The position numbers were made by a program, and so were the translations under genes. Below are positions 2,664-64,000 of a DNA stretch of 64,000 nt, piece by piece. The stretch spans positions 10,330,902-10,394,901 of the forward strand of contig NC_087076.1 in NCBI RefSeq assembly GCF_026151205.1. The letters run 5' to 3'. The notes beneath the pieces were generated by a model. The model did no database searches and had not been told where the DNA came from. It saw nothing but the letters and a program-made list of their open reading frames with translations. This DNA comes from Bolinopsis microptera (Eukaryota; Ctenophora; Tentaculata; Lobata; Bolinopsidae). Numbering within the stretch: position 1 is the stretch's first letter; every line of letters begins with the position of its first letter.

Positions 2664-2940
2664 AGCCAGTGACGGTTAAGGTAGTGTGTACCATACTTTC
2701 TTCGCCCGAGACTTTGCTGCATGCAACATGTGCAGCTCCTCATTTAACCCTCACACCCGATTTCTCGAGTATTCGGCTGAGTACACCGGGGGGCTGCATA
2801 GACCCCTCACGATCCTTAGCTGAATGTCAACGACACTCACCCCACGACCAGGCAGGCAGTAGGATTTGAACCCGCAACCTCACGATTGCAAAGCTGGCTA
2901 ACCAACTGCGCTACCTGGCCGTTTGCGCTACCTGGCCGTT
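2664..2940 (-). mobile_element. tRNA-derived SINE (probable)
   Basis: The minus strand from 2920 to about 2851 looks like a tRNA. It has an A box TAGCGCAGTTGG and a B box GGTTCAAATCC at tRNA spacing, and a TTTGCAA anticodon-loop-like segment. The acceptor and anticodon stems do not pair properly, so a working tRNA is unlikely. The first 17 bp of the head are tandemly duplicated (2907-2923 and 2924-2940). A body follows that includes GAGGGTTAAATGAGGAG, which is shared with the element near 26800-26965. Boundaries are approximate. Confidence 0.6.
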
Positions 2941-4802: not shown

Positions 4803-7800
4803 TCAGTTGAACGGTTTGGACTGTTTTATTTCCGTAGCCAGTTGCTTGGCAGGGAGGTCGGCGTTGGATACCGCCAGTCGGTTCAAATGTTCTGTTATTT
4901 CGTGCAGATCTTCTTCCTTTGTAATACTGCTACTCAGCAATCTGAGAGAGGTTATTTATAATCCACCATGTTCCATGGAATTGGATAGTCTAAAAAGTTA
5001 AAATAAACCCCGCCACGACACATGTGACGGGAACTGAATATCAAATTTTGCGAGACGAAAATATCATTATATTTGGAATATTTAAACATATTAAATGTCA
5101 CACCGATATAATAGTGGTATAACGTGCAGTTTTACTTAATGATTGATATAACATCTGTTGTTTTTAAATAGGTTCATAGTTGTGGGATGTCTGGTAACAC
5201 CAGCTGTAGATCACACTTCAATGACTTTATAAATTACTATCATATCTCAGTTTTTATGGTATAAACGTTATTTATTTATGTCAAAATAAATATGATCGTC
5301 CTTTTCTAAAAATGTAGAATTCCTGAAAATAAACATCACTGATAACTCTGACAACATTTTTTGTCGTAAGCTAAGATTCCGAGGTAGAATAATAAATAAT
5401 CAATTGAATGGCACACTATCTTACTAAACAATTGAAAACAACTGCTGATTTTAACTTTTTAATTGTTTTTATTTAATATTGGGAATATTATGTATAATTA
5501 ATTAATACCTGATGATGTTAAGCGCGAGTATTCGAACGTTAGGATTAGTATCGTCGGTCAGGGAGCCCTCACAAAACTTTAGAACTTTCTCAGAGACAAG
5601 AGAGGAGCCGTCTCCTTGCGTGTGTATTATCTGTGGTAATAATCACAATCTGGTTATCTGATCTGTTTTATAGTATGTAGTATTGCTACCTATCACAATT
5701 ATACAGTTCATATTAGAATGGTAATCTTATATTTGATCCTTCGAACAGCTGTTGAGCAATGAAACGCAAACATAATCTTAGCAAAATGAATATATTTCTT
5801 TTATCTTCAGCATTTAATCAGTCACATAATCTGAGAATATCAATGGTTAGTTTGAAAATGTCAAAAATTCTCATCAAAAATGTAGTAAAGTCTCAAAAAA
5901 TTCTCAAAAAATTATCAAAAAATTAATTTAGCATCTCGTAAAAATGGAATAGTTTAAAATCGGAACAAAATTAATCGCATATACTATAATAATGTGGAGT
6001 CTGCAGTAGTTCATTAAATCAAAAAGACGCAATTCAAAAATTGATAGACTGCATATATAAACAAAAAATGGACGATTTAAAAATAAAATTCGGGACACCA
6101 TGAAAAATTAACTTCCAGAAACGGAATTCACATTGTTCAGGCCAAACGGATAAAGTGTCTTCAATTTGTTAATATAAAACTGTTCTGACTTTCTAATATT
6201 ATCTGGGGATGTAGAACACAAAATATCAAAATGGAAACTTTCATTGAAAACAGATCTCTCCCTCAAATTATGAACTGAAAAAAGATGTGCCCCTAAAACA
6301 TTCTCGTCATCAAAATCTCTGTGGCTCTCAACATTCCCCTTACTACTCGCCTCTAAAATCTCATAATATTTACTGCGATGACCATTCACACGTTGGCTGA
6401 GGCTGGTGACTGTTTTTCCCACGTATACGTTATTAACAGTACAAAGTTTGCATGTCGCGCCGTACACAATGTTGCGTGTCTTACAGTTACCACCTTGAGT
6501 TCTGACTGAGTGTCCATTATTGGAGACCATGGAATTGCCACTAACAAGGTGACAAGTTTGGCAGGGTCTGCCTTTCTTCTTCTCACCAGGTTTGGTGCAT
6601 GGGTCAGTTGTTCTTGACTCTGAACCTAAGAGTTAGAATGGAAGTAACTAATCTCAGCCTCTTGGCCAGAATCGCTGAATCTCGCCCCTGGACGATTAGT
6701 GGTCCCACTAGATTCCAAAGAGTCTGAACACCTGCAATCTATAATTACATGCTCACCACGTTCCAAAGAGATGTGACAGGTGCGAAAAGTTACGTACGCG
6801 CAATTAGGCCATTTCAGAAAAGTGAACCCGTTTTAAATGGATGCAGATGGTAGCTAGGAATTTAGAGTGATTCACCATTTGTATTGTGGTATGTGATTTA
6901 ACATAATATTACAATCCTACAACATGAACAATCATTTACCTTTTGAATAGCGAGCCAGCCTTCGACTTGGATTTGAGGGAATTCTTTAGTCGTTGTCATT
7001 TGCAATATTAGCGGCATAATCTTACATTCAATCTGCAAAATTGAATATGTAAATGCTTTCAAAAATACATTACGCCAACAAGAAGCTCTCTGGCTAGCAT
7101 TTTAATTAATGTATAAATATTAAATATCTACAAATGCTCAAATGTCATGAGCTAACGAATTTATTCTTTATGATTTATTTTCGCAATTCAAAACAAATCT
7201 CATGAACATGATGATTGATGCTAGGCATCTTTAAAAGGTAATATTATACACAAAACATCTCATAATGACATCATATTATGTTGAAATCGTGTAATTTCTG
7301 GGTTCCATATGTTGTCTGATCATATTGTTAAATACTAATGACCCCAACGTGACGCGCGAATGATCACACATCTAAGAACCGCCATCAGAAATGTCTCGCG
7401 AAATATTCTGACCTTTTCATTTTTTGTCGTCGGACACTTCAAACAGCTACGACATATAAATAAATAGATAAATAAATTGTTAAAAACTGATTTATTATTA
7501 ACAAATGAGGTAAAGAGAAAGTAACCATTTGTGTGATAGTTTGAGGGTTGTGTTTTCCCTCTACGATCAGAGTACTGATGAGGCGGGGTACTTCTCCCTG
7601 GATACCGTTGTGATACTTGTACTTGTCTACCAGTCCAACTAGAGTCTGGAATAATAGTGGTGTTAAAGTGGTTAATAGTGGTTAATAGTGGTTAATAGTG
7701 GTTAATAGTGGTTAATAGTGGTGTTAAAGTGGTTAACAGTGGTTAATAGTGGTTAATAGTGGTTAACAGTGGTTAACAGTGGTTAACAGTGGTAAATAGT

Positions 7801-10800
7801 GGTAAATAGTGGTGTTAAAGTGGTTAATAGTGGTTAATAGTGGTTAATAGTGGTGTTAATCCGAGGGTAATCTGAGGGTAAATGAGTCTAGTAATACATG
7901 CATTCGTATCTGCACAGATGTTTGAACGAATTCATATAATCTTACAATATTGACAATAACATCAACCCATGATTGTAAAATATGCTTACAATTCTTTGTA
8001 GGTTCACAATTCAATCTTACAATCTTGAAAATAACACCAACTCTCGCTCCTGATTGCTAACTACGCTTACAGTTCATTGTATATTATCCACTATTCCAGT
8101 ATCCAGCGGTATAAAAGCAACCAATAGCCCTACGATTATAGCTATCTATATGATAACAGTAGCAGACTATAAATTTCCCTGAAAATGAACTGAACCGCTA
8201 CCTTAGCGATGATAAATGCAATTTTCTGCTAATTAATTAGAACCACCAGATCAAAAGAGGCCGATGAGAGATGCATCTAGATGCACTGATTGTGCAATGT
8301 GCTGGTTCTAATAAAAGAACGGAATAGTTGATTATATATTCAGAATTAGAGGCGTGAGTATTTGGTAAACTGTGGGTGTATACTGAAACATATTGTAGAC
8401 AAGTAGGCGCTGTAATAGGCACTTCTATACTAGGCACTGTATATCATTAGGTACTGTAATAAGCAATAGTAGGTACTAAATAGTAGGCACTAGCACTCTA
8501 TCTTTCACAAGTTATCACAAAGATGAGAGAATCCTAAAGGCCACTTTAACTGCGCTCAGGTATGTTTCGTTATATTAAGATAGATAAATTATGTCATATT
8601 ATATATTATATACAATATTTTGAGTAAACATTGGCTGGAACTTCGGGCCACTCCCCAACAAAAAAGAATTTAGACAGGGACGTGGAATATATACTCAGAC
8701 TCAAATTTCCCACGTACTACCATCTTTCCAGGTCTTTATTTAAGAAAATTCAGAAACATAAACTCAATAGCCACTCACAGGCCACAGCACCTCGTGTATC
8801 TAATTTCTGTGACATGTGGTGAAATAAATGACCTGTGAAATGATGTTAATGAGGTGAATAAACAGCAGTTTGTATTTGAATAACTAAAACATGTAAAAGC
8901 CTCCACAAAATATTATCTTCTCAGGTAAGATACTCCATTCTTTTATATATGTATGTATTATATTAATAATCTTCTTGTAATTCTAAGATCTATCCTGGCA
9001 CAGCCACGTGAACTGTAAGCTCCTTGTTAAATTAGAGTCCCAAATAGCTGGCTAACTATCGTACACTAACATTTATAGTTGGGCCCTCACTGTAGCGAAT
9101 TCCACTAGTAGCCTGATCTATTCTACTGGCCTGATCAGCAAATCAGCGGCTGAAGGGCGCTACTACAGGATAATAATAATATAACCATTGTATTGGAGGA
9201 ACAGCATTTTCTGCTATGAACACCACTAACCCTAGCCTCTATTATATTAATTATTACCAATTCAGTATCCTGTATTATCTACCTATAAGGCTCCTATTGT
9301 TAATATACCTAGTTACCTTTAACCCGTTACTATATAATACATGAGCTCTGTTTGACAAAGTGTCGTACCTCATAACTTCTGCCATATAACCGAGTCTCCA
9401 CGATAGCTCCATGCTCATTGCACACGACCACAATTTCCATGATGCGTATAATATATTAAGTTATTATTATTTAAATAACTGTACTAGCTGCTACCCACAC
9501 TGTACACTGTACACACTATGTTCCGCCCGGATACAACCTACTATTGTTATTTTAACAAATCAGATCCACCTTTTGTTATCTTATTATAGCAGTACATGCA
9601 CGTGCAGCGCGGCGTGATTATTTAACGGTTCGTTTTAAATTTCCTCGCAGATCAGTGCTTTTCCATAAAAATTATGCCCTTAAAAAGAAAGAATTATAAA
9701 AAAGGTCAGATGTTCTAAAAATCTCTTTTGTACCTAATTTTAAATTTCCTCAAAACTTTCCTCGCAGATTATCTGCCGATCCGTCGTCTTTCTGTACATG
9801 TGGGTTCACAGTTCCTACATGGTACGTATGAGCTACTGGCTTTACTGATATATAAAACAGTAAATGATATAAATTGTGACAGTAAAATAAAGGGAAGTGT
9901 TTATTTATGTGCTGTGTATACCTGACACTGTAACACGTATAGTAAGCAATGAACTAGTAGTCGTTAGTAATTACTCGTTATAACTGCAAGTCCTAACTTA
10001 TTATGAAAATATGTGTAATACATTGATTTTAGTAACACAACTAGTCATGACTCATGAGGTAAATCTGCTGGCAGTCATTCCATAAACATTTTGTATAGCA
10101 TAAATTGATGATTATCGTGTCTTATGCGATCCATATTCCATAGTAATCTGACAAATGGTTCAATGGATTCAGGAAATAAACTAGATTAAAATTTATTTAC
10201 TGCTGGTGATAACACTCAACCTAATCAACCTAATCTCGACCCAATCTCGAACTAATCTCAAGCTAAATTCGAAGGCACGGAACAATCTGTGAAGGCACGT
10301 CTTGCGGTAGAGTAGATCGACTCTTAACTTGGTTAGATCCTAACTAAGGCGAGTAACAATGTTATCTACATTCTACATTTAAATGTGCTACTCAAGCTAG
10401 TATTTAGATACACCAAATGCAACTATTGTACAATGTAATAGTTATACATTAACATAACGTTTCAAGTGTAGAAAAATACATCAACGTTTTCTATTTAATG
10501 CCAAAGCGTGTGTAGGAATTGACTTTTATATAAGTTAGTGTAGAATAACGAAATATTTACAGTTATTAGGAGAATCTTTCATCTTACAGAGGAGTATTGT
10601 GGCTCAAACTGTCCATTATATTCCGGTTCTTGTATCGTTACTAATTGGGTGATAATTACTAGATAATTGGTGCTCCACACTGCATGAAATGTGCTTCTTA
10701 AGAACCACAAAGAAGTTATTATTGCTTTCTTGTACTTGTAGACAAGACAGCATTTTTACTCCAGAAAGTCTGTGTAGTATATAATAAGTTTAAAAGAGGA

Positions 10801-13800
10801 CTATGTTACTTATAATAGCAAACATCAATAAGAACCAAAAAAAATCAAAAATCAATTAAACGAACGTATCCTCAATAAATAAAACATAACTAAACTGTAA
10901 ATCATCATCAACAAAACCTTAAAAACATGGCAAACAAACTGTACCTGTAAAAGTGTAAGATTAACAGCGAGCTCAGTAGCAATCTCAGAGTCTCCCCTGG
11001 TCAGGCACCTGACACACCCCACACTCTTAAACACCAACATGGGCATGTCACATGACACGTAGCCTAGCAACGTCTCCAAGTGGGGACGGATACGGGGCTT
11101 GGCTACCTCGCATATGGAGAGGTTGCGTAGTGCGGAGAGAGCTGCGTGTTTTACCTGCGAGTATAGCGTGACGTTATATTATACTGTTATACTTTTTAAT
11201 CATTCTTTAATAATTTAGTACTGAGGACAAATTTTATCCTCTTCAGTCTGTGTTATCTTTTATTTCTTGTCTTGACAAGCAAATATTATTAAAATTATTT
11301 CAGTCAATGATTGATAGATATTCACATTTCACAAGGATCTAAATATTGAGCCAACAGAACTGAAACATCAGGGTCCTGACACAACTTATAAACTATATCT
11401 ATAAATCTAAATCGTGATCCCGATAAAGTCATCTACAGAACAGGTCATACAGCTCACTGCTCAGGAGAATTATAGAAATACCTAGTGTTGACAGAACTAA
11501 AATTAAACAACCACACTCACATTGACAAGGTACTTAACACCTACTGTACCGTGTAACCTTGATTTTAATTCAAGTTTAATGAGCGCGCTAAGCGTAACAC
11601 GTGATCACTAGGTACCTGGTATATCAGAGGTGAATATATTACACGATCTTAAAATCTGGTGTATATTGTATAACTAATACTATCAGTTTATTTCTGGGCA
11701 TATTTAATTTGATGGGCATGAGCTGGGAAATCGGACGTCAAATTACTAGATCTAACCGTAGAAATTAATGATTGATTGGGGGACTGGTCCGTAGTACCAG
11801 CCAATGTTTACTCAAAAGTAATATACATATAATTGAAATAAGTTAAAATATTCATCCCCGAGGGGCACGCAGATTATAATTGTGATGTTATCTATTAAAA
11901 CTATTCAATTAAAATTTTATTGGTCGAGTCGACTGGCCCTGATCTGCAAACATATTTGATATTAGTAACTTTATGATGCTGCCTCACCGCAATTAGGTGT
12001 GTTATCAGTGTAGATATGCGCTATGTGGCAGTGAAATAAGGAAATGTGGAATGTGCTGTTAGAATGGCAGGTGGTTTGAAATGTTGTCCTGATTCAGATT
12101 GTTTAATTTGAGCTGTTTGAGTTTGGTTTTGAGTGATTATTGACTATGTTCTTTGTGATTTACGTAATCCAGGTAGGTTGTGGAGTAAAAATGGTGGCCA
12201 TTCGTCGTTGCAGCCAGCACTTTGCAAGTCTAGTAGTACTTTTTTTGACGAATTCTTATATATGTTGATAGAAAATATACTGGATGGGCATGTAATGCGA
12301 GTGTTATGCTCTGAAATAGCGAGCATTGGGCCTTTATAAAAGATGCTAGATCTCAGGTCAGTCTGTGAGTAAATTGATAACCAGTCTAAGTTTTGTTCGT
12401 GTGTCGTTCCTTGTTTGGGTGTGTTAGGAGGGAAAAGTTCTGAAATCGATTTAGGTAACAAACTAGACATATTTCGAACTTTGTGCAGTAAAATAAGTGC
12501 GTTTTTAACGATAACCCCTTGAACGGTTAAGACCTCGTGTTCTTTAAATGCTAGTTTTGTGTGCTCTGGCAGTTTTCCGTCCTTGTAGTAGTAGTTCACA
12601 TTTCCGGCCATAACTGCCCTCATACCTTGTTTTTGTTTAGCAAAAAGAGATTCTATAAGAGATTTTGAAGCAAATCCCCAGACAAGTGAGCAGAAGTTTA
12701 AATGGGACTGAACAAAACTTTGGAAAATCTGTAAACGGGCCTTCATTGGCAATTTATGTTTTATCCTGTACATCACCCCAATAAATCTTGACATCTTGCT
12801 CCTCAGTGCTTTTATGTGGTTACTCCAGTTCAGCTTTTCATCTACAATTACACCAAGAAACCGGGCTTCGGTTTTACGTTCTAATACTGTATTTTCTATT
12901 TGTACTTTAATCAATGATGGTTCTATGCGCTTTTTAGAGAAAATCATATAACACGTCTTTTTTAGATTTAGTGCTAATCCGTTGCTATTAACCCACCGTG
13001 ATAATGTTTCCGTTAATTGATTGACCCTTAGCATTAGTTCTTGGACATTGGAACCGTTAATAATGATATTTGCATCGTCTGCATAAAGTATGAATTTTAC
13101 CATCATGTTAGAAATACCGGGAAGATCGTTGATGTATATGACGAAAAGTAAGGGACCTAGTATGCTCCCTTGTGGAACACCATGCACAATAGGCTTGTGG
13201 GACGAATGTGAATTGTTTATTGCTACATATTGGCTTCTATCACTTAGGTATGACTTAAACCACTTTAGAGCTATTCCCCGGATGCCGTAGTGCTGTAATT
13301 TATTTAGCAGTGTAGCATGATCCAGGACGTCAAACGCTTTACTGTAATCTAATAATAGCAGTAGTGAAATTTGGTTTTTGCTAAGAGAGTGTAAAATTGT
13401 ACTTTGTGCATTAAGAAGAGCATGTTCACAGGACCTTCCTGGACGGAAACCATACTGATTTTCGAATAAAGAACTATTTTTGTTAAGAAATTCTAAGACA
13501 CGTCGGTGCATCAGTTTTTCGTATATTTTTGAGAAGGAACCTAAGAGAGATATGGGTCTATAATTTTCAACGTCAAGTTTAGAGCCTCCTTTATGGATGG
13601 GAGTTACTTTGGCAATTTTAAGGGCCTGTGGAAATATGCCTGTACTTAAGGATTCGTTGATAACTTTTGCTAATATAGCAAGGAAACTATCGCTGGAACT
13701 GGCTACTTTTAGTGGTTCAATTTTTGTGTCAAGGGTCGCTTTGTTCTTCAAACCAATAATAATTCTTTGAATTTCGATCGTTTCGGCAGGCTGGAGATAG

Positions 13801-16800
13801 ATTGATTGAGAACAGGATGTGGGCAGATATTCTTGGAACCCTCCAGGGTCAAAGGTCTGACGGGCACTTATCTGAGTTTTGATGTTCGTAGCAATGTTCG
13901 AGAAATAGTCATTAAACCTTTCAGCCACGGTATCTTCAGAACTCAAAATCGACCCGTCCGAACCTTTGAGTCTTAACTGCTCAGTTTTCCTGCTTCTACC
14001 AAGTAAACCGTTGATTATTTGCCATTGTTTTTTGGAGCAGTCCTGGTATTTTTCGAATTGTTTTTTATAGTATCGTTGTTTGGCAATGTTGACATGTTTT
14101 TTACAGAAAAGTTTTAGCTTTTTATAGGCCTCTATATTATTCATTGTAGGTTCAAGTACTTTACTATGATAACTTTCTTGTTTCCGCGCACATGCTTCTT
14201 CAAGCCAGGGTAGTATCCAGGGTTTAGTATTAGAACGCTCGTGCTCACGGCGAATATGATTGATTTTTAGTGGATAGGCAGTGTTATAGTGCTTGGTGTA
14301 TATATCTGCAAGTTTTCCGTATTGCAGACTAGCGTCGTCTGTACTTAATATCTCGTCCCACGTTTCCCCATCGATGAGTTCCCTAAAAGCAGCATTGTTG
14401 GCCTCATTTATGACACGTGTTTCATAACTAAGTTTAGGTTGTGTGTTAGTGGGTAGCCTGAGATGTTGTTGCGAAGAGTTACTTAGTTTAAAAGTGGTAA
14501 CGATAGCAAGATGATCCGATAAATCCACCGTTACAACGTTACTGCTTATTGTGTTACTTATATTATTTGTGTAGACATGATCAATTAAGGTAGCACTATG
14601 ATCGGTGACTCGTGTCGGCCTTGAAACCGTCTGAACAAATCCATACTTGGCAAGGAGGTCTATGAGGTTCTGTCCAGAAATATCAGTTTTGAATTTTATA
14701 AGATCAATGTTCGCGTCTCCAAAAAACATGATATGCTTGCGAGAATGTCTATCTAGACCTCGTAGCACCTTTTCCAAAGAATTTAAGAAGTTCTGAGTAC
14801 CTTTAGATGGGGACCTGTAAAAGTTTATCAATACTTTTGTTTGGTTTGTGCCTTTGCAATTATGCACCTTAACTAATTGAAATTCAGCGCACGTGTCATC
14901 GGGATCTGTGGTTGCCTTAAGATTTTCTATATTTTCGGGATCACAAACCCTCTTATTAATGTAAATTACAAGGCCACCACCTTTTCCTGATTTGCGTAAT
15001 GGTTCCTGAACAATAGGCTCGTGAAACCCTTCAATTTTAATGTCGGAGATTCCGTTTGGTAATTTATCTAACTTCAAATTGGTTTCGTTAAGACACAAAA
15101 CGTCATACTTAGTATAACTGTCGATTTCTTCACGGAAGTATGTGATGTTCTTTACTAATGATCGCACATTAAGAGAAAACACTTTCAGTTCATCACGGGA
15201 GGAACTTTTAATGTTCGATGGCTGCTGATACTTACAATTGGTTAATATATCGCTGATTTCGTTCCAGTATTGGTAACTTTCATCGTTATCCTGATCTAAA
15301 GCGTTACCAATCAAATCTAAACCATGTGAGCGGTCGTATGGATTGAAAAGAGCAGTGATTCGGCTGCTACAGTCCATAAAAAGATCATAAGATGTCACAT
15401 AATAACCTGGGATTAACGACTCACAGCACTTTATGCAGCCTAAATTATCTCTAAAACACTTTTTATGAATGTACTCATCGCACCATGGACAAAACCTAAT
15501 GTTTAATCTAGAATAACAAAACCCGTTACAGGCCATGCACTTTGTTTTAAAATTAGTCTTGTTAACACTACTTTTTTTATTCGTCGGGACATCAGAGGCA
15601 TTGATTGGGAGAATTGAGCTTATGCATTCGTAGCAGAACCATGGGTTCCCAGAATTTATAATGTGCCGGGCATCGTTTTTTGATAGTTTCTGGCATTTTA
15701 AATGTTTACGTTCAGCACATAGGTCACAAATTAGGTCAGGAGAACTTTTAGGGATACGAACATAGCATTTGTCGCAATTGGGCTGTGAGCCGTGTTGCCT
15801 ATGATTACTTCCCTCCACTTTCAGTGACAGAATAAAGTAAGAGTTGAAAACAGATTAAATAAATGAAATAAAAACTGAATAAAGAAAAATTGATATTAAT
15901 AAATAATCTGATGGGTGTAGACAGTAGGCTGGTCAGATCCGTTTGCAAGAACTTTCAGTTCTGTGTGCAAGACAAGATCGTGACGGTTGGGCCTATTTAC
16001 TACTTAAAAACTACAGATTATTATCTGCTCAAAATCAACAGGCTATGCAACTAGTTCTCTTAAAGAATTTGATAATAAATAACAGAAAAGATTGACTAAT
16101 GCGAGGGGCGCACGGACTGTGGATCAGTCATAGTCTGTCAGAAGTCGGTAGTTGGGTAGATTGTCGATGTGATTTTTCGTTTTCTGTATCATGTGTACAA
16201 TGTAATGAGATGTAATAATATACAGTAGGCCTCGTATTTTGTTTTATAAATGGAGTATTAAACGATGCGATTAAGGGACTGTAATTAGAATGACTGATAA
16301 GTGTAAAGCCGAGATTACTGATAAGGCGAAATGTTGTGACAGGTGTAAGTGAGTTGCGATAATATTAGTATTCGACGTGTTTTGAAAATGTTATGCTACG
16401 TTGGCTTAATTTGAAATATGATTGCAGATCAGTCCTTTTACAAATTGATCATAGTAGTTGTATGTGTTTAACTCTCAGCCGAAACCGCAACTATTCATAT
16501 AGTTGTTACATATATCTAAAAATGGACGTCTTAGAGGTAGTGATCCTTTACGAAATCCTAAGCTCAGTAAAATCAAATTTATCCAGCATGTCGTGAGAAC
16601 AGATTTGCCAGTGTTATTTAAATGTAGGCCATCCCGTGCAAGGTGGGGCAAACCGAAATTCAAATTGTCAAACAAAAGAAAGTTGGGCGAGCGTAGTGAG
16701 AGATGAACAAGCAGCTCGTTCAGGTTGTTAATACTGTCATTCAGCTCATGGTAAGGGTCTGCATTCAAGTTGACTGGTGATATGGCGTCGAAGATGAATT

Positions 16801-19800
16801 GAGTGCCAGAGTGACTTATGAAATATTTTAGGTGGTCATGCAGGGTCATAGGATCAGCATGACCGAATCTGAGGTCGTTCACTCCGGCACTGATGAGGAC
16901 TAGATCAGATTGTTCTATTGAGGCTTGGTGTTGTGCTAAGTCTCTCAGATGGAAGAGATCTTCTCTGAACGCAATGATCGGCTCTTTGAGGAGAGAGCAG
17001 TCGAATGTACGGTTCTTGGAGTCAGACAGTATAAGAACTCGCCGAAGTCGTTTCGGTGTTGGGTGGTCCTTGTGTGGTGATGATAGGCCTGACGACAAGG
17101 AGCCTCGTTGGGGACGTCTGCTCTTCTTGACTGTACCGGGGTCCTCTAGCAGTCTGAAGGTAATGCTCAATCGGGGCCCCTCAAATTTCTCTTCAGGGAT
17201 TCCTGGAACGGAGTGATCCCATTCATCCTGGCTTTGTCTGGACATGGTATAGAGAGAACCATGAGTAGCTGTGAATGTCTCCTTCTTGTACTCTCCAGGG
17301 ATCTTCCTCCGAAATACCACTTCTCTAGGACAGCCGAGTGACAGAGTGATGATGTTACTATCCCTACTGATACTGGGTTCGTTGTCTGAGTGGGGTGGAA
17401 TGCAGGAGCGGGGAGAATCGTATGAGGTGACCATGGCTGAGTTGAAATTAAGATCTGGATATTCGGTCTTAAGAACATTAGCAATTTCACTCAAATATGA
17501 CGATTTTGAAATGTCTCTAGCATGATGGGAACCGCCGGAATAGCGATATGAGAACTGACCATAGTAGGCAACACGTCTATTAGGAAAAGTACGGTCATAA
17601 GTTACGTCATCGTTCAGCGCAGAACTCGTAAATGTGTCAAAATGTGCACCATCAAGTGTCTCAAACGGTAGTGTACCTAAGTTTGTCGAGTTACCGTGTA
17701 GTCCTTGGCTGTGTAGTCGTTGGCTGGGCGGTGGGGGGATAGGCGTCTGCTGAGGGCTGCAGGGTGGTTGAATAGCTGTGGTAGTTGTTGAACTGAGAGT
17801 TTGGCCAATGTCTTTTTGAAGTCCTTTCAACTGCTTACTAGCGTCCTCCGTGTGCCTCGTAATGATTTCAGTTAAGTTTTCAACACAATTAGATAACAAG
17901 TTAAATAAAGAATCTTGTTCTTCGCCAATAAATTGTTGGAAATGCTCTCTTAGGGCCACACGAGCTTCGTCAATGTCCTTTTTACTACGAGTTTTACGTG
18001 GCAGATTCTTGATAAATTCAGGATTCAAAATAAGGTTGCTCTCCCTCATTATCTGATCTTCATCTAGCTTGTCGACTAGCTCTAGGCTGGTCAGCGCTGA
18101 GAATCCCCCTAGCCGTTTTGGTTCAGGTTCCATTATCAAAAACTTACTTTACTGGAAAGTTTGTGGCAGCTTTATGTAATTGGACGGTTCTGATTCCCGT
18201 ACCGCCTAGCCTCAGTCTGTCAGTCGTAGTTAGTTACCACAGTCCACGTCACAAGCACATGCAATTTAGCTGTTATCTACATACAGATAAGAGTGGACAA
18301 ACGTACTACAGAAAGAAATGTGTGTAATGATGATAATAACTTTATGTTCTTCGATTTGACAAGTTTTAAAGTTGTAACCGGTAGGATATAATATATTTGA
18401 GTATTAGAACAGTTTAATGAAGTTGTGTCTAAGAGTTAAGAGACTTTTAACTGTTACCCATCTGCCATGAAACATGCCTTATAGGGCAGTATAGAGTACA
18501 ATCTACACGGGTATTTGATTGCTTTGGATTGCTCAATGTTACAAACTGGTCCATAGATTGGCTTTATCAGTACATAGAACATAGAATATTTACATCTGCA
18601 CTGTAGGCAGCTGGCAGGTTCATAATAACAAAATATTTTCAAATTATTGCTGTCTTCCGCTCATCTGTTGATTTTGAAGCTTCAACGCTCACCAGAAACA
18701 CTCTCAGAGGCCATGCATATAATTTTGGAGACTTGAATGCATTCTAGACCATAATCTAATGATCAATTAAGATACGAATTGGATCAAATTCCGCACTCTT
18801 TGTTCAGCTGACTCCTTTATAAGTAGATTCATGAACTTATAATGGTCATGCTTTGTTGCAAAGGAAATCATGCACAGTGAGAATGACAAGAGCAGCGTGT
18901 AAACTGCGTACAATCCTGAGTGATAATTTAAAAGAATGTAAGATCCAAAATTATACTACACCATGGACTAATGTGAGGTATGAAGTTAGCCCGAAGAATT
19001 TAATACTCCGTGTATTAGAGACTGGAAGAATTGGCCGTGTTTAAGGAATTCCGGGAAATGTTTCGGCAATGATCAAGTATTCCGTGATCATAGCATGTAA
19101 CAAAATGCTTGAAATTCCGTTAGTCAGGTTAATAAGGTAATTTTGTTAATAACTGGTATTGAGACTATAACATCGGTCCGATAAGTAATACTAAGCAGTC
19201 CTAATCAGTTGTAATAATTAGCTGTGATAATACAGGGTTACAGATCTGGATATGGAAAGAAACATTTTAAAAGCGACTTGATAATTTAAAAAAGTTAAGT
19301 AAGTTGGATGATGGATCTGCTCATATTGTGTACCTCGACAATAACATAAATAAATCTAGTATATAGTCCAAGTTCTTATCTTATATTCTTTTAAGAATTT
19401 AAGATAAGAACTTGGACTATAGTACAATCTAAGTTAAAACTTATATTCTTAACTCAAGTTACGGTAAATTAATTAGCAAATCAACCAACTAACCTTAACG
19501 AGCATCTCATCGGAAGTATAATCACATGCCAGCACTTTGAACAGGGTCTCCACCAGGTCAGGAGTATCTACCAGCAGTGAGCTACGTAGGTCTGACGTTG
19601 CTAGGTTACCTATCACCAGTGCACCTGTTGAGGGAGACTTTATTTTAGTTTGTTTATGTAGATCATACTGTAGGTAAAGATATTGATTAAAGAGGTGTTT
19701 TAGACTTAACGTTATCTTTGAGCTATCGACATTCGACATTCGACGATTTTTAGAAGAAAATTATCAATGCAAGACTTATGGATTATATCAAATACATAAT

Positions 19801-35400: not shown

Positions 35401-35401
35401 C

Positions 35402-36700: not shown

Positions 36701-36780
36701 TCTCCTTTCCCTAATAAGAGCATTTTTACTTGTCGCAACAACCGGGATAAAGATAATTTTACCCAGAATACATTACAACA

Positions 36781-40298: not shown

Positions 40299-40312
40299 AT
40301 TTTGTGTGTGTA
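40299..40312. repeat. Right target-site duplication of the Penelope compound insertion
   Basis: ATTTTGTGTGTGTA, matching 31985-31998. To its right begins the 3' UTR of LINE-B. Confidence 0.7.
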
Positions 40313-40349
40313 GTATGAAATCTATATGGACTAGTTTGTGTGTTCTTAA

Positions 40350-43300
40350 TTATAGGCACATGTCATTTCCATCAAAGTTGAGTTCTGACCATTCATCAGT
40401 GTTTCCAGCTTTTTGAGCATTGAGTAGCATAGTTTTAATGCGACCTTTAACAAGTGCAATTGGGGACGAGAAGTCAATCTTACTAGAGGGTTTAAGGAAT
40501 TTATTCCACATATTCGAGGTTTTATATACAAACAGATTGGTTGCAGCGGGGTTAATAAAGTAGTTATCACGTCGGGGTGACTTTTGAAATAAATTGTACA
40601 TCGGTATTGGAGTGTGAAGTTTGATTATTTTAAACATTTCAAGTAGACAGTGGTACTTATACAAATTATGCACGCAGAGTATTTTGTTTCTGCTGAGAAG
40701 GGGTTTACTTGATTCTCGTTTATAGAAGTCGGCTCCAAGTTTTTGGGATCCAATTGGGCGGGTTCTAGCACATGTTTTGAACTTATTACTGTATGCCTCT
40801 TGATCACCAAATAGAATACGAGTGCACTTTTTTTGAATTTTAAATATTGGTTCAAGCCTATTGTTCGATATGCCTCCCCACACTGAGATCCCATATCCTA
40901 GATGAGATTCGAAGAGGGTGTGGTAGAGGTCATTATACAGCTCTTTAGGTATAAATCTTCTCATACGGCAGAGTTTACCGACTTCACACTTTAATTTAGA
41001 ACTAAGATATGCAGTATGAGGTTTCCAGTTAAGGTTTTTATCTATAATAACGCCGAGGAATTTAGTTTCATCAACACGTTTAATGACTGTGTTATTCAAC
41101 GTTAAAATAAGATCATTACCATTACTACTACTACTAGTTACATCCTTCTTTCCTGGTGTAAAGTGAATGTAACAGCATTTCTTGATGTTAATGTGGAGAA
41201 GATTGCATTTCATATAATTGTAAACAGAATTCATTATAGTATTAGCTTTTTGGTAGAGATTCTGGACAGATTTGTCGACTACAAATATATTGGTGTCATC
41301 AGCGAAAAGTATAAATTTTCCTAGGTCTGATGAGTTATAGATATCGTTTATGTAAATTATAAACAGTAGCGGTCCTAAAACACTACCTTGTGGTACTCCA
41401 CAAATAACAGGGAGTTTATCAGATTCCTCACCTAAAACTGAAACGTACTGCTGTCTGTTAGATAGGTAACTTCCAATAAGCTCGTTTGCGTTACCTCTTA
41501 TACCATATTTGTCAAGTTTTATGAGAAGTTTATCGTGACTGATAGTGTCAAATGCCTTTGATAAGTCGATAAAGATACCTAATACATGTTGCTTTTCCTT
41601 TATATGGGAGTTTACATAGTCAACTGAGTAATTAAGGGCGTGGTTAGTTGAGTGACTCTTCCTAAAACCAAACTGGTTCTCAAACAAAACGTTCTGCGAC
41701 ACAAGAAAACTGTACAAACGGGAGTAGATTACTTTCTCAAATAACTTTCCGAACACAGCTAGGGTAGATACTGGCCTATAGTTTTCGAGATATTCTGTAC
41801 CGTCTTTTTTGTATATAGGGCTAATTTTACCAATTTTCAGTCGGTCTGGAAAAGTTCCATTTCTCATGTGTTCATTAAATAATACTGACAGGAGTGGGCT
41901 TATAATCTTAGACGTTCGTTTGATGACGTGAATAGGGATGTCACTAGCTTTTCCATTCTTGAGTTCGCTAATGATTTTCTCTATTTCTTCTGGTGTACAA
42001 TCGCTGAGAAATATACTTGAGGTATTTGGCCTTGGTAAGTAGTCCGTAAAGCATTGAATTGGACTTAGTCTAATTTGACCGGTTGTACTGTATGATTCAT
42101 TCAACTTAGGGGCAAGAGATACAAAGTAATTATTAAATTCGTTAGCTATAATTCTACGGTTCATTATTTTCTCATAATTAATAACAAACGGGGGTTTAAT
42201 TTCTCGTTTCCCTTTGCCGCGTATCTTATTGATTAGTTGCCATGTTTTCTTACTGTCACCTTGAACTTCATTAAATTTACCCATATTGTACGAAGTTTGA
42301 GCCTTTTCACGTATAACTTTGAGTTCTTTTCTATAATATTTATAAGTTAAGTACTCACTGCGCTTTTTGTTACATACTGCGCAGTGACAGAAGCCACCTT
42401 TTGTGTCAGTATCTCCTAGATTGCACTTGACTTTGCGAGCTTTGACCCAGTTTTCGTATAGTTCGTGACAGTGATTTATTGAAGTTATAATTGCTGGTGT
42501 AATCCATGGATTGTTTTGCATAGTGCGTTTTGTACATTTCGGGGTTTCTAACTTGAAACATTCGTCAAAAGCAACGTTAAATGTGTCAGCAAAGGTATCA
42601 AAACAATTTATTACAGTGTTATCAAGACTATTGGATAGTTTGTCGGTGAACTTATCTACGTTAGAGTTACAGTAGTCATAAAACTGTTCATACTTAATCT
42701 TGCAATCGTTCTGGTCAAGGTGTGTGTTGAGTGCTAAGAATATGGGGTGATGATGTGTGATTTTGTCTTTGAATGTGCCAGATGTTATAATGTTGTCTAA
42801 ATCATTGGTAATGATGTTATCGATGCATGAAGGAATACAGCCGGGTTTTTCATGGGTCATTACAGATATGAGAGGATAGAAGCCTCGACTGTAAAGAACG
42901 TGTTCATATTTAGCAACCTTGTTGCTGTCGCCGTGAAGATTGATGTTAAAGTCACCAGCTATATACGAGTGTCTGGGGACTTTGTCCAGAGTGTCGGCTA
43001 GTTCACTTAGCGCTAAGTCAAAATTGCCACTCGGAGGGCGGTATAAAACTCCAACAAAGGTGCTTGAGTTACCATTGTTGAATCTTAAAAATAGGATTTC
43101 TAGGTTTTCACTTACATAGGAGAGGGTATTATCGATTGTTGCATTTAGTGACTGGTGGATATAAATTGCAACTCCGGTGCCCTTCTTTTTCTCTCGAAAG
43201 GTTGCTTGGTAAAAACTATTGTATTCGGTTAATTGATACAAACTACTTAATTCAGGTCCTACATTTGTTTCAGCAAGTGCAATTATGGAAAACTTTTTGT

Positions 43301-44470
43301 TATATCGGCGAAGATCTATACACATACAGGGTGGGCCAAAAGTCAGTACCCATACGTTGGCCTTAATAGCTCCGCCGTGTTTTATATTTGAGAGCTGTTG
43401 CTTTGCAGATGGCATACTGTACTTACTGGTTCGAGGATTCCGTCGTCAAAATTTGAAAATTCTAATATTTTAGACCGCGCCCATTCAATATTAAAACACC
43501 TATATTGTTTTCTCTGAACATGCTGAACGCCTAATTTTTTTCAGAGACGGTAGATTATCAAATGTTGCATATGATCTGAAAACATGAGGCAAAACGGATT
43601 AGAAATAACGAAGTTATCAAGCATTTTCTGTATCTCGTTAACAAAATTGACTGGGTGATTATGTGACACCGTGACACGACACCTTAATCGGGCACCCTTA
43701 ACAATTCCCATAATGTTTAACGGGGTAGTTAACGGGGGCACCTTATCACGTGATTAGGTAAACCAATCACCTGATCACACGTAATGAATAAACTCGTTAT
43801 GCTTCATATCTCGGTCATCTGAGAAGCTACAGTTCTAATTCTTTCAGGACAAACGTAATTCGAATGGCCAAACACAATTCAATAACATTTAGCTTGATCC
43901 GACTATCCAAACTATCAAATAAATGTAAAAATGAACCTCCATTTGAAAAAAATGAACGCGAATAATTTTCGAGTTGACAAATTCCTCGAACCAGTGGTGG
44001 TACTAAGTCATACCAGAAAGAAGTATTTGAATTGGGCACTCAGTGACTGAGCTATAAAGGCCAACGTATGGGTACTGACTTTTGGCCCACCCTGTAGTAT
44101 CAAAATTACTTTTGTTACCGTCTATGTTTTGAAACATCATTGACATTTGACCTTCGGTTAAAGTTTCTAGAGTTTGATTAATTTGACTTCTGTTAAGCTG
44201 AGAACAACAGTTTAAAATTTGCGAGAGCTTAGTTATCGTATCGTCTAGATCGATTTCTTCGTCGGAGATATCATATTTGAACGGGTTGTATCGTTTGACA
44301 GCAAGATTTACACATGTATTGCAGAGAAAGTTACCGCATAAATCGGTATTGACAATATTGTAGCATTTATGATGAGTTGCATGGTTACATTCGGAACACT
44401 CGACTATGGCTTGGCCCACATAGATACCCTTGCAGCAGTGTTTACATACCTCTTTAGTTAGAGTAGTCAT
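40350..44470 (-). pseudogene. LINE-B ORF2: PHD finger, AP endonuclease, RT; disrupted by MITE
   Basis: Starts at ATG 44470, overlapping the ORF1 stop. N-terminal PHD-like finger (CKHCCKG, CSECNHATHHKC, LCNTC), then the endonuclease begins (FQNIDGNKSNFD) and is cut at 44095 by the insertion. Coding resumes at about 43326: ALAETN, GVLYRPPSG, AGDFNINL, then ITHHHPIF where SDH is usual (Ser-Asp replaced by Thr-His). The RT contains ISPIYKKDG, NYRPVSTL, IDLSKAFD, GVPQGSVLGP and FILFADD (near 41293-41309). Deleting the insert plus one TA leaves a single continuous frame, so the MITE is the only lesion seen. Confidence 0.88.
43327..44094. mobile_element. MITE (Tc1/mariner-type ends) inside LINE-B ORF2, copy 1
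   Basis: 768 bp, flanked by TA on both sides (43325-43326 and 44095-44096). The ends pair as inverted repeats beginning CAGGGTGGGCCAAAAGTCAG and continuing through the ACGTTGGCC region, more than 40 bp. TA duplication and CAGGG ends suggest mobilisation by a Tc1/mariner-class transposase, which is not encoded here. The interior is about 85-95% similar by eye to the second copy at 50373-51408 in opposite orientation; the short open frames inside are not genes. Confidence 0.88.
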
Positions 44471-46695
44471 GACGGTTGGTAGCCGTCAGGAGCACCAGAT
44501 ACTCGTTTATCAGCAGGAAGAGAGCGTGCAGTTATATCACGAAATGATGTGGAGTCCACCTGATTCCCCCCTCGTCCAGCTCTGCGTCTGTCTCGACCAC
44601 CATTAACTCTAAGAAGAATAGTATTTTTAATGATTGCTGCTAACTTTGCAACCCCCCTCCAATTGAGGTGCAAGTAATCAGGTTTCTGGAACTTCGTCAA
44701 CCTTTTTGACAAGTGTTGGCTTAATAGCCCGTTCTCATCAGCAAAGTTTGGAAACCCTTCTACCAGTCTCACACCAAAGTTGAAAGGGAGAAGCTGGGTT
44801 TGAATCAGATAGTTAAAGAAATTGACTCTTCTATTTAAATCAATACATTTAGTTGGCAGCAGCGGACATATATAAACATTAGTTTTTTTATTGACAGCTT
44901 GAATTTCAGCAATTTTACTAGTAAATTTATTGAACACTTGTTTGATGTCAGATGGAGTTTTGACATTATCCTGCCTAATATCATTGAGTCCGCAGAGAAT
45001 GACAGTGTTTTTGTAGCCGCAGGATTCGTATGGGTCAATGTGGTCTACAGTAGGTGCGAAGACTTGTTTTCCAGGAAGGAACTTTCCAAAGGATCTCTTA
45101 GGATCAAGTCCAAATTTAAGTCCACCAGTGTTCGAATCTCCCATGATGCATGTAGAAGCACGGTTTAGAGCACTAACAGATCTGAGGGTCACAGAGTATC
45201 GGACACCGGAGTCGACAGATCCTGGTTCAATTCTGTGTTCGTACAAATCCTGACTTGCCCTGGTCATAGTGTATAGTGATCGTGGTGGACAAGACTGGTT
45301 GTGATAGGGTTCTGTGGTGCCAGTCTTGCTGAAAGTGACTGTGCAATGGTGACCTAGTGAAAGTGTGTGTACTGATGAGTCGGGGTGAATGAGGGGTTCG
45401 TTGTCTGAGTGTTGTGGAAGGAAGCTTAAGTGACCATCATACCGATTGATGAGAATGCTGTTGACAGGTGGAGAGTTTGGATGATCATTGTTCAGTTGTG
45501 TTATGAGTGATTGGAGTTGGTCTGGTAGTTGGTCGGATGAGGGTGATGATTTTGTGCCAGTGTAGTGATATCTTTCTCCAAAAGCCAGAACAGATCGTCC
45601 ATTCTCATTCTTGAACTCAGATGTGCGAGAATCAAGCAGTTCTATGAGATCCTTCTCTGTCTCCTCATCAATAAAATCGAGAGTGTGTTTAGAGACAGGC
45701 GGGCGACTGTGTGGGGGCAGCTGGGTTACAACCTGGGTGTTGAGCTCTTGTAATCCAGGGATGGTCAGTGGATGCTCTGCGGAATGCTGCAGATTTGCTG
45801 TTGATTGCTTCAGCTCCTGCTTGCATACCTCTCTGAGCTCTTGTGACACCCGTTCAAGGAGCTTGTCAGATTGATCTGATGTTGGTGAGGTGGTCATGTC
45901 TGATGATAGGGATGTGACTTGCTGTTTGAGTTCATTTAGTTGGTTGGTGAGTGAGTGGAAAGTCTTGTCATGAGTTTGTAAGGCAGTTGTGAGGTTTTCA
46001 ATTGTGGTGTTGAGTGGTGGTGTGGGTGATTTATCCAGGGTAGTGGCCAACTGGTCTGAAAGGAGCTTTATATCTGAGTCTAAGGATTTCCAGGGCTGGT
46101 CTTTTAGGAGGAGGTGCTTAAGGCGTTGGTCAAATTGGCCAAGTGTGTCAATTCTGTTACTGAATTGAACAAAGTCAATATCCTTAATGAGCTTGCAACA
46201 ATTGGCTAAGGGTTCTAGTTGTGATGAAATGAGTGCTGTTTCTGCTTCCAGGTTTGACTGCTGTAGTGATAAAGTGTTTCTGCAGACGTGACAGACGTCA
46301 ACTTGGGTGGATATAGTAGCAATAGGTGATACAAAACAAAAGGGACAGGGCCATTGTGTGAGATCATTGAGCATTTTACTATTTAGTCCATTAAGGCCTA
46401 CGCAGTTCGCATGCCAATACTGTCCACACTTGGCACAGTCTAGTTTCCACGACGATTCCAGTGACTGGTCGCAGGGACATTTCCTCTTATCTCTGTGGGA
46501 GTGCTGGATGGCTGGCATTGCAATGTGTGGTGTAAGGTCCAGCTGGGGCGCTATTGAAGAAGCATCTAACTCTGATAGGGATGATGATGTGTGCTTCTTA
46601 GCAGTTTTTGTTTTATGTTGAGCTGGTGTAGAACTGGAACTGGAACTGGCGGAGAGGGCTTTGTTTCTCCCTTGCCTCTTAGCAATACCAGACAT
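44467..46695 (-). CDS. LINE-B ORF1: PHD finger, coiled region, AlkB-like dioxygenase, SGNH hydrolase
   Basis: 742 aa from ATG at 46695. Residues 73-120 form a C4HC3 PHD finger (C73, C75, C87, C90, H95, C98, C117, C120). Residues ~145-300 are helical/coiled, likely for multimerisation. Residues ~365-510 are AlkB-like: SILINRYDGH, PQHSDNEP (H429, D431), HTLSLG, YEHRIEP (H487) and VRYSVTLR (R499, R505). Residues ~515-690 are SGNH-type: CIMGDSN (D520, S521), LCGLNDIR (N571, D572) and DYLHLNWRG (D673, H676). The catalytic sets look complete. The stop codon overlaps the ORF2 start (ATGA, 44470-44467), pointing to termination-reinitiation for ORF2. AlkB assignment is from motifs, not a search. Confidence 0.87.
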   Translation of the reverse strand: MSGIAKRQGRNKALSASSSSSSTPAQHKTKTAKKHTSSSLSELDASSIAPQLDLTPHIAMPAIQHSHRDKRKCPCDQSLESSWKLDCAKCGQYWHANCVGLNGLNSKMLNDLTQWPCPFCFVSPIATISTQVDVCHVCRNTLSLQQSNLEAETALISSQLEPLANCCKLIKDIDFVQFSNRIDTLGQFDQRLKHLLLKDQPWKSLDSDIKLLSDQLATTLDKSPTPPLNTTIENLTTALQTHDKTFHSLTNQLNELKQQVTSLSSDMTTSPTSDQSDKLLERVSQELREVCKQELKQSTANLQHSAEHPLTIPGLQELNTQVVTQLPPHSRPPVSKHTLDFIDEETEKDLIELLDSRTSEFKNENGRSVLAFGERYHYTGTKSSPSSDQLPDQLQSLITQLNNDHPNSPPVNSILINRYDGHLSFLPQHSDNEPLIHPDSSVHTLSLGHHCTVTFSKTGTTEPYHNQSCPPRSLYTMTRASQDLYEHRIEPGSVDSGVRYSVTLRSVSALNRASTCIMGDSNTGGLKFGLDPKRSFGKFLPGKQVFAPTVDHIDPYESCGYKNTVILCGLNDIRQDNVKTPSDIKQVFNKFTSKIAEIQAVNKKTNVYICPLLPTKCIDLNRRVNFFNYLIQTQLLPFNFGVRLVEGFPNFADENGLLSQHLSKRLTKFQKPDYLHLNWRGVAKLAAIIKNTILLRVNGGRDRRRAGRGGNQVDSTSFRDITARSLPADKRVSGAPDGYQPS

Positions 46696-46857
46696 AGTAG
46701 AAATCAGCTATATCTATGATCTAAAATAAACACAAGTGTGCAGCGGTAATGCAGTAAGAGCTTTCACAGCCAACAAAACAACGAAAACTTACGTCTCCCC
46801 TTGGGGGGCCTTAATACATGCTATCCCTGAACTCAAATTATTTGTTATATAGTAGTG

Positions 46858-47311
46858 TTGAAAGTAAAAGAGTTGGAGACTTTCGGTTTTTTGTAACATG
46901 TTCCTCTTTTAAAAGTAACGTTACCTCTCCAGGAGGAAAATTCAAGACAACGTAATTGTTGTTGCTCTATCCAGAGCCCTTGCGCTTGCAGTGGCGCGCG
47001 CCCGCCTCACGCGCCTCTTGACTTGTGAAACAAGCGCGCCCGCAGTGGCGCAAAAGGACATGGTTAGGTGAATAATTGTTGAGTTATATCAAAATCTCCA
47101 GAAAAGTCCCCTTTCGGGCCGATCAAAAGTTTGCAACTTTAACTTTGCGGATTCCTGTACTCTGGTTGGCTGAATTGTGTCACGTGGTAGCTGCCTGAAC
47201 ATTGGAATACGCCACGCGTGCAAATCATGCTTGTTGTCGCGCGCGAGGTCAAGCCGTCTGTTTAAATTAAACCAACTCTAGTACCACCACCAGCCGGTAA
47301 CTTTTCATGGG
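46858..47311. repeat. Dispersed repeat, copy 2 (partner at 29721-30059)
   Basis: Same sequence as 29721-30059, with an additional ~115-bp GC-rich block at about 46965-47080 that contains GGCGCGCGCC and CTTGTGAAACAAGCGCG. It sits directly against the 5' end of LINE-B. Confidence 0.85.
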
Positions 47312-63783: not shown

Positions 63784-64000
63784 CTTGCTTAGAAAGTAGG
63801 ATATCAGACATTTTACCAAGTTGGAAATTGTATCAATTAATTTATTAGCTTCAACCCAAGTGTGGGCTCAGTATGATGGACTTGTACACATGATGAAGTA
63901 TTTAAGAAAGCAAGGGAGGTCAAGTAAATGTCAAAATAATAAATCTCATACTACACTGCGTAACCAAACTAAGCTTAATTGTGTCCACCATCTAGTGTGA
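63784..64000. other. Receptor 5' flank
   Basis: Upstream sequence of the GPCR on the minus strand. No TATA box or other motif is distinctive enough to call. Confidence 0.4.

Follow-up and report, generated by a model that had tools for sequence, protein, structure and literature searches.

An ALKBH2/3-type AlkB domain within the ORF1 protein of LINE retrotransposons in the ctenophore Bolinopsis microptera

The 64,000-nucleotide stretch analysed here (the window) is part of contig NC_087076.1 of the ctenophore Bolinopsis microptera (positions 10,330,902 to 10,394,901). It contains a long interspersed nuclear element (LINE), here named LINE-A, whose first open reading frame (ORF1) holds an AlkB domain, a dioxygenase dependent on Fe(II) and 2-oxoglutarate (2OG). 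Window positions are used throughout, and the coding strand of ORF1 is the minus strand. The features of LINE-A are as follows, with the basis for each in brackets (pLDDT, predicted local distance difference test).

11769..18330, minus strand: LINE-A element, ~6.56 kb, 5′ end ~18330 and 3′ end ~11769 (genome-wide DNA match)
16475..18133, minus strand: ORF1, with long helix, AlkB domain and SGNH-like domain (frame, Pfam, predicted structure)
17795..17983, minus strand: ORF1 residues 51-113, predicted as a single long helix and a candidate for a coiled coil (AlphaFold2, pLDDT ~51-65)
17144..17608, minus strand: AlkB-type 2OG-Fe(II) dioxygenase domain, residues 176-330 (Pfam, phmmer, AlphaFold2, superposition)
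17384..17392, minus strand: HSD, metal ligands H248 and D250 (aligned to ALKBH2 H171/D173 and ALKBH3 H191/D193)
17213..17215, minus strand: metal ligand H307 (aligned to ALKBH2 H236 and ALKBH3 H257)
17153..17173, minus strand: RLSITFR, with R321 (2OG) and R327, and S323 at the Asn position of ALKBH2/3 (alignment)
16559..17047, minus strand: SGNH/GDSL-like domain, residues ~363-525, with SDS at 370, GVND at 417 and DGLH at 501 (PF13472 below cut-off; motif patterns)
12144..15818, minus strand: ORF2, with cysteine-rich N-terminus, APE-type endonuclease and reverse transcriptase (RVT_1 1e-37, Exo_endo_phos_2 2.5e-9)
11767..11800, minus strand: 3′ end of the element, a CTGGT...ACCAG hairpin and, after it, (CAAT)n repeats whose number varies (sequence)

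A first-pass annotation made from the letters of the DNA had proposed an AlkB-like domain in this ORF1, and all of the residues that it named (H248, D250, H307, RLSITFR at R321-R327, and the stretches NSAMVTSYDS and LSLG) are found exactly so in the minus-strand frame. It had suggested a profile search and a structural superposition as checks, and both bear the identification out. The Pfam AlkB profile PF13532 matches residues 193-327 with an E-value of 6.4e-19 (69.4 bits, cut-off 31.2), and a phmmer search of the PDB recovered human ALKBH3 (E 4.5e-12), with the three metal ligands and both arginines aligned, and ALKBH2 (1.6e-6). R321 and R327 correspond to R248 and R254 in the alignment, which is numbered from ALKBH2; we take H171, D173, H236, R248 and R254 to be the known ligand numbers of that enzyme. 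A profile built from 22 transposon AlkB domains found ALKBH3 at 1.2e-31, ALKBH2 at 5.6e-25, ALKBH8 at 7.5e-13, Escherichia coli AlkB at 1.9e-9 and ALKBH5 at 0.06.

The domain was then modelled with AlphaFold2 from an alignment of the two AlkB domains of the window and ten homologues (one from Vibrio and nine environmental viral sequences). The LINE-A model (pLDDT 86.7, predicted template modelling score 0.84) superposes on ALKBH2 with a Z-score of 22.9 (root-mean-square deviation 1.6, 166 residues) and on ALKBH3 with 22.5 (1.9, 167 residues). Scores were lower for ALKBH5 (16.4), FTO (15.8) and AlkB (15.4), and a Foldseek search was in accord with ALKBH2 and ALKBH3 as the nearest folds. The homologues in the alignment are ALKBH2/3-like and the model may therefore lean toward these enzymes, but the sequence matches are independent of it. 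We regard the presence of an ALKBH2/3-type AlkB domain in ORF1 as confirmed.

ORF1 is a single open frame with an ATG start, encoding 552 amino acids before its stop, whilst plus-strand frame 1 across 16475-18133 is closed by many stops. ORF2, whose stop-to-stop frame begins at 15854, carries the endonuclease and reverse transcriptase and lies downstream on the same strand, the arrangement of an APE-type two-ORF LINE. The ends of the element were placed by a genome-wide DNA match using 9.1 kb around it, for which 40 of 615 candidates were scored, so that counts are lower bounds. At least 30 of the 47 listed matches (the window itself excluded) share a 3′ end, stopping at query 7825-7838, which is window ~11769. 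Their starts are graded, as is seen with 5′ truncation, and 28 of the 30 are 97-99% identical, with identities of 93% and 95% in the remaining two. The 5′ end is marked by two of the longest matches, which start at query 1271 and 1273, equivalent to window ~18330. Of three other copies (L002-L004), two keep the ORF1 frame whole and the third keeps it from residue 10 onward. Of two copies whose 3′ ends were read, L006 has one CAAT more than the window copy. Thus, by its anatomy, LINE-A is a recently active two-ORF LINE. A short tandem repeat at the 3′ end is typical of the CR1/L2 group, to which LINE-A probably belongs.

Three copies (L006, L007, L008) form a subfamily, A′, in which the ORF1 DNA is ~76% identical to that of LINE-A and the ORF2 and 3′ parts are ~98-99% identical. 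This pattern could be read as exchange of ORF1 or template switching between LINEs. In L006 (contig C6:297238-300441) a point near the end of ORF1 is joined directly to the middle of ORF2, which continues to the common 3′ end, and this copy looks like an internally deleted derivative. LINE-A itself is flanked by exon-like stretches in the same sense (10935-11180 and 19480-19600, minus strand) with ARM-repeat-like text that may resemble RAP1GDS1. The element may therefore lie within an intron.

Outside the AlkB domain, ORF1 resembles those of the esterase class (coiled coil plus esterase), AlkB taking up the linker. The predicted helix at residues 51-113 is a candidate coiled coil. The SGNH/GDSL profile PF13472 matches residues 396-509 with an E-value of 1.8e-5 and 25.8 bits, under the Pfam cut-off of 32.9. 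A sequence search of the PDB with the LINE-A SGNH part gave no match, and the same part of another AlkB-bearing LINE family (L033) gave a weak one to 4c1b, an ‘ORF1-encoded protein’ (E 0.13). Simple patterns for the SGNH motifs (GDS-like, GxND or DxxH) are partly missing from five further ORF1s (L026, L030, L031, L032, L034), and the esterase may be kept in some LINE families and decaying in others. Published esterase-class ORF1 proteins (ORF1p) have no structured RNA-binding domain between helix and esterase, and Schneider et al. 2013 did not settle how these proteins hold RNA (PMC3905857). LINE-A, with an AlkB domain at this place, departs from the description of a class lacking a structured nucleic-acid-binding domain, and its ORF1 would therefore be a variant of that class.

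A second AlkB-bearing LINE, LINE-B, lies in the same window.

40299..46866, minus strand: LINE-B element (match bounds, query 1335-7902)
44467..46695, minus strand: LINE-B ORF1, 742 amino acids, with cysteine-rich N-terminus, AlkB and SGNH motifs (PF13532 E 2.9e-13)
45160..45648, minus strand: LINE-B AlkB domain
40350..43445, minus strand: LINE-B ORF2 frame, endonuclease and reverse transcriptase, 5′ part interrupted in this copy (RVT_1 1.3e-36)

Within its bounds LINE-B has 34 matches of at least 1 kb (window excluded), 33 of them at 97-100% identity and one at 64%. At the start of its ORF2 region there is a ~770-bp insertion (43326-44095) resembling a miniature inverted-repeat transposable element, with terminal inverted repeats of ~48 bp, which is absent from several other LINE-B copies.

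Of two ionotropic glutamate receptors tried from this genome (264.65 Mb), one (L037) has its best match in ML032222a iGluR, a Mnemiopsis gene, and the other (L036) in vertebrate kainate receptors. The genome was searched for further AlkB domains. At least 151 matches, transposon and host taken together, were found with 150 of 587 candidates scored; four or more of them (L021, L022, L023, L062) look like host genes. An AlkB ORF is followed on the same strand by an RVT_1 frame at 11 loci (LINE-A, LINE-B, L026-L028, L030-L034 and L076); at L030 the AlkB ORF was read from the open frames and the reverse transcriptase from the listing of such matches at the same place. A further AlkB LINE (L029) has a broken ORF2. 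Approached from the other side, 28 of the best 150 reverse transcriptase matches are preceded on their own strand by an AlkB match from the list of 150 at a distance of 1.5-7 kb, in most cases ~3 kb, compared with 1/150 downstream on the same strand and 2/150 on the opposite strand. Moreover, AlkB was found upstream in 8 of 16 loci that were chosen from the reverse transcriptase list and fetched (3/4 and 5/12). These 16 were selected non-randomly, by frame length so as to spread families, and several may be one lineage; one (L093, reverse transcriptase frame 1147) is from a family already known to bear AlkB, and the fixed fetch distance misses some. AlkB in LINEs is thus common in this genome and not a one-off.

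The domain is not confined to LINEs. Three giant AlkB frames belong to Helitrons.

L024:1303-8679 (contig C12): Helitron long ORF, SGNH and AlkB first, then Helitron_like_N and PIF1 helicase
L025:883-9501 (contig C10): Helitron long ORF, SGNH and AlkB first, then Helitron_like_N and PIF1 helicase
L038:1-6099 (contig C9): Helitron ORF, fetched part, as in the two above without helicase in that part

In the first two the full order is SGNH, AlkB, DUF6570, Helitron_like_N and PIF1 helicase. An origin of these three frames in long terminal repeat (LTR) elements was considered and rejected once they proved to be Helitrons. In another frame (L039) Penelope-like text, judged by eye, precedes AlkB, and this was taken as a fused insertion.

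A tree was built from transposon AlkBs together with host, human, bacterial and phage AlkBs, leaving out three Helitron rows (L024, L035, L044). The AlkBs of Helitrons nest next to those of the L076 LINE family (support 94/87), and the module therefore seems to have crossed between retrotransposons and a rolling-circle class of transposon. On one side of a branch with 92/83 support (under the star threshold) lie 25 transposon rows; on the other are ALKBH2, 3 and 8, bacterial and phage AlkB, and the L027/L029 family. With the exception of that family, no transposon AlkB in this tree, LINE-A included, falls inside the ALKBH2 or ALKBH3 clade. The L027/L029 family groups with ALKBH2/3 (94/87 in a separate tree), whilst the approximately unbiased test does not reject a tree in which all transposon AlkBs form one clade (p-AU 0.168), so these data fit either one or two captures of AlkB. 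The LINE family of L027, L028 and L029, with ORF1 frames of 777-884 amino acids and AlkB on the ALKBH2/3 side of the trees, is possibly a second, independent capture. Separate host genes exist, which by best PDB match are ALKBH2-like (L021), ALKBH3-like (L022) and ALKBH8-like (L062). Capture of a host ALKBH gene was rejected as the source, the transposon AlkBs grouping apart from these genes save for the L027/L029 family.

A structure search of viral proteins (BFVD) gave five best matches with E-values from 1.6e-14 to 1.3e-12, three of them unnamed and the named ones being a Pinela virus polyprotein (1.8e-14) and a Riboviria sp. protein (1.8e-13); the next was an ALKBH2-like protein of a giant virus, Yasminevirus (1.5e-12). 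Shared ancestry with RNA-virus AlkB is a possible lead from these structure matches. Outside this genome no relatives were found at E 1e-3 in IMG/VR (searched with LINE-A and alignment A2) or in prokaryote genomes (A2), where there were pattern matches only.

Conservation of the domain was followed in an alignment of 75 AlkB rows, 68 of them counted as transposon and 30 of those 68 mutually more than 5% different; partial rows (L007, L008, L071) were left out. The iron ligands and the two arginines (H-D-H-R-R) are kept in 68/68 transposon rows, and so are the residues equivalent to Y122 and E175 of ALKBH2. Where ALKBH2 has the base-stacking F124 and ALKBH3 has Y143, 60 rows carry Tyr and 8 carry Phe. 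Ratios of nonsynonymous to synonymous substitution (dN/dS) were calculated by the Nei-Gojobori method, excluding pairs with saturated synonymous sites (LINE-A against L018, L011 and L014). For the AlkB region, LINE-A compared with three A′ copies gives 0.25-0.29, L026/L030 gives 0.116, L028/L042 0.058 and a pair of Helitrons 0.143. Moreover, three near-identical copies of LINE-A differ from the window copy by 8, 11 and 8 residues; many of these differences recur between copies, and none lies within residues 176-330. Judged from these substitution patterns, purifying selection has kept the AlkB domain.

In AlkB enzymes Fe(II) and 2OG activate O2, and a methyl group on a base nitrogen is hydroxylated and released as formaldehyde. 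The reading we favour, and hold to be probable though well short of certain, is that ORF1p delivers such a demethylase to the element's own single-stranded RNA. LINE-A ORF1p would be a self-associating ribonucleoprotein with an ALKBH2/3-type dioxygenase between its long helix and its SGNH-like domain. As expected from ORF1 biology, it would multimerise on and package its own transcript, and the enzyme would thereby be delivered in cis to single-stranded RNA. There it would oxidatively remove base methyls, with N1-methyladenosine (m1A) and N3-methylcytidine (m3C) the likeliest marks given ALKBH3-like chemistry and N6-methyladenosine (m6A) the alternative. Since m1A and m3C would block base pairing, reverse transcription and translation, their removal would let the ribosome and the reverse transcriptase read the RNA. 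The domain may also provide a structured nucleic-acid contact of a kind absent from published esterase-class ORF1ps. The first-pass annotation had suggested that the element clears methyl marks from its RNA, and this is plausible. A broader proposal, that mobile elements across this genome commonly carry the demethylase, that it has long been under selection in them and is exchanged between LINEs and Helitrons, and that it would be, as far as these searches show, the first epitranscriptome eraser or RNA-repair enzyme of an animal transposon, is put forward more tentatively, as one that could well fail.

A number of observations weigh against an ORF1p-delivered demethylase of this type. The Asn of the RxNxTxR motif is present in human ALKBH2/3 and in the host ALKBH2/3-like genes, but is replaced by Ser in 67/68 transposon rows, LINE-A included. 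At the position of ALKBH2 D174, 43 of the 68 rows have Asn and 5 have Ser, and at N159, presumably a 2OG contact in AlkB enzymes, there are 32 with Asn (LINE-B included), 32 with Thr (LINE-A included) and 4 with Ser. The 68 rows were found through AlkB similarity and decayed copies are therefore under-sampled. The SGNH region is under tighter constraint between LINE-A and A′ (dN/dS 0.07, against 0.25-0.29 for AlkB). In a model of full-length ORF1 the AlkB domain is well folded, but the block pLDDT of the N-terminus and of the SGNH part is ≤65. Finally, Helitrons are not reverse transcribed and presumably move through single-stranded DNA (ssDNA), so that with AlkB in these elements as well RT-blocking lesions (those that stop reverse transcriptase) are not the whole story; for the same reason, erasure of m6A-type marks and repair of ssDNA are retained as competing readings.

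The comparison with SGNH extends to the saturated pairs, LINE-A against L018, L011 and L014, in which the nonsynonymous proportion is again lower in SGNH than in AlkB. A claim that AlkB is the best-kept part of ORF1 was therefore withdrawn: SGNH is the more constrained in the LINE-A lineage, though by pattern its motifs are missing in several families.

The domain could instead erase marks placed by the host (m6A or other regulatory methylation) on transposon transcripts, allowing escape from host recognition rather than repair of lesions, which we consider unlikely but deserving of serious attention. The AlkB protein of an orchid Gypsy element removes m6A from single-stranded RNA in vitro (PMC9289625), the step that LINEs and Helitrons share is the mRNA and not reverse transcription, and the change from Asn to Ser in nearly all rows could mark a changed substrate. 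However, the closest structures are those of ALKBH2/3 (Z 19.4-22.9), with the m6A erasers ALKBH5 and FTO at ≤16.4 and the ALKBH5 profile match at the E-value of 0.06 given above. Moreover, in one study m6A favours the movement of human LINE-1 (PMC7873242), so its removal need not help.

Action on ssDNA (the displaced target strand, the cDNA or Helitron ssDNA) as transposition-linked repair strikes us as rather improbable. The nearest folds are structures of ALKBH2 and ALKBH3 with DNA, and the presence of AlkB in Helitrons would suit such a role. However, ORF1p is an RNA-packaging protein in other LINEs, and in human LINE-1 the DNA steps are performed by ORF2p. We also doubt, and more strongly, that the main role of the domain is to give ORF1p a nucleic-acid-binding platform in place of an RNA recognition motif, with catalysis secondary or lost. 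It does fill the linker that joins the helix to the SGNH part, a place at which published esterase-class ORF1ps lack a structured RNA-binding domain (PMC3905857), and N159 is not conserved in 36/68 rows, LINE-A included, but a mere platform would not need iron ligands, and these are invariant together with both arginines. An artefact, whether from chimeric assembly or from the chance capture of a host ALKBH gene beside one LINE, is scarcely credible, given the intact ORF1 frame in other copies, AlkB upstream of reverse transcriptase at many loci and the grouping of most transposon AlkBs apart from the host ALKBH2-, ALKBH3- and ALKBH8-like genes, which exist separately.

The window holds further features. 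Two inverted ORFs of ~950 amino acids (32627-35467, minus strand, and 36757-39621, plus strand), near-identical over most of their length, match GIY-YIG weakly (0.0014) and look Penelope-like by eye; another copy, a partial one, lies at 35277-36140. Overlapping open frames at 319-1373 (minus strand) consist of a repeated motif (SCLPGFVPTWCFFLSF-like) and appear by eye to be a tandem repeat, not genes. Lastly, a 383-codon frame at 62716-63867 (minus strand) reads by eye as hydrophobic text like that of a G protein-coupled receptor, and has no Pfam match at E 0.01.

Lastly, we compared LINE-A with known systems. In the Phalaenopsis orchid, the AlkB protein of a Ty3/Gypsy element binds RNA and demethylates m6A in vitro (PMC9289625), and plant positive-strand RNA viruses (Flexiviridae and others) carry AlkB (PMC544882). 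A classification of Jockey-superfamily ORF1s contains no occurrence of oxygenase, AlkB or 2OG (PMC4120745). Among the open-access papers listed, none was recognised as describing AlkB in the ORF1 of a LINE or in a Helitron, though a subscription-journal, bioRxiv or Repbase record may exist. The statement of the first-pass annotation that AlkB is no standard part of LINEs agrees with this literature, yet the domain is common in this genome. As far as these searches show, a LINE with an esterase-class-like ORF1 containing an ALKBH2/3-type domain appears to be new, the nearest published case being the orchid Gypsy element. If the broader proposal holds, methylated bases in transposon RNA (or ssDNA) would be a brake on transposition in this lineage. 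The AlkB domain between helix and SGNH part offers an answer to the question of how esterase-class ORF1ps hold RNA. If the enzyme is active, retrotransposons of an animal would bear the cost of an anti-methylation enzyme, as do certain RNA viruses and an LTR element of orchids, and RNA methylation or alkylation would be a selective force on transposons.

With ALKBH2 and ALKBH3, LINE-A shares the fold, HxD...H, RxxxTxR, the base-stacking aromatic and the Y122 and E175 equivalents. It differs in that its domain lies within ORF1p, with 28% identity in the structural alignment, and in having Ser for the Asn of RxNxTxR, Asn for D174 and Thr for N159. The Helitrons (L024 and L025, and L038 in part) have AlkBs of a group common with the LINEs, but are DNA transposons with SGNH before AlkB and not after it. 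In RNA viruses AlkB lies, as in LINE-A, inside a large protein of an RNA-based replicon, but these viruses are without reverse transcriptase (PMC544882). The orchid element, like LINE-A, is a retrotransposon encoding an AlkB-family enzyme, and in vitro activity has been shown for the orchid protein; it is an LTR element with the enzyme in a separate ORF2, ALKBH5-like and described as recent (PMC9289625). LINE-A, in contrast, has the endonuclease-reverse transcriptase ORF2, 3′ tail and 5′ truncation of a non-LTR element, and its AlkB is ALKBH2/3-like with many divergent sequences. The type IV (esterase-class) ORF1 of the CR1/L2 LINEs, such as zebrafish ZfL2-1, has an upstream helical segment and an SGNH-like C-terminus, as LINE-A is predicted to have, and likewise precedes an endonuclease-reverse transcriptase ORF2; LINE-A differs by the AlkB enzyme between helix and SGNH part (PMC3905857; PMC4120745).

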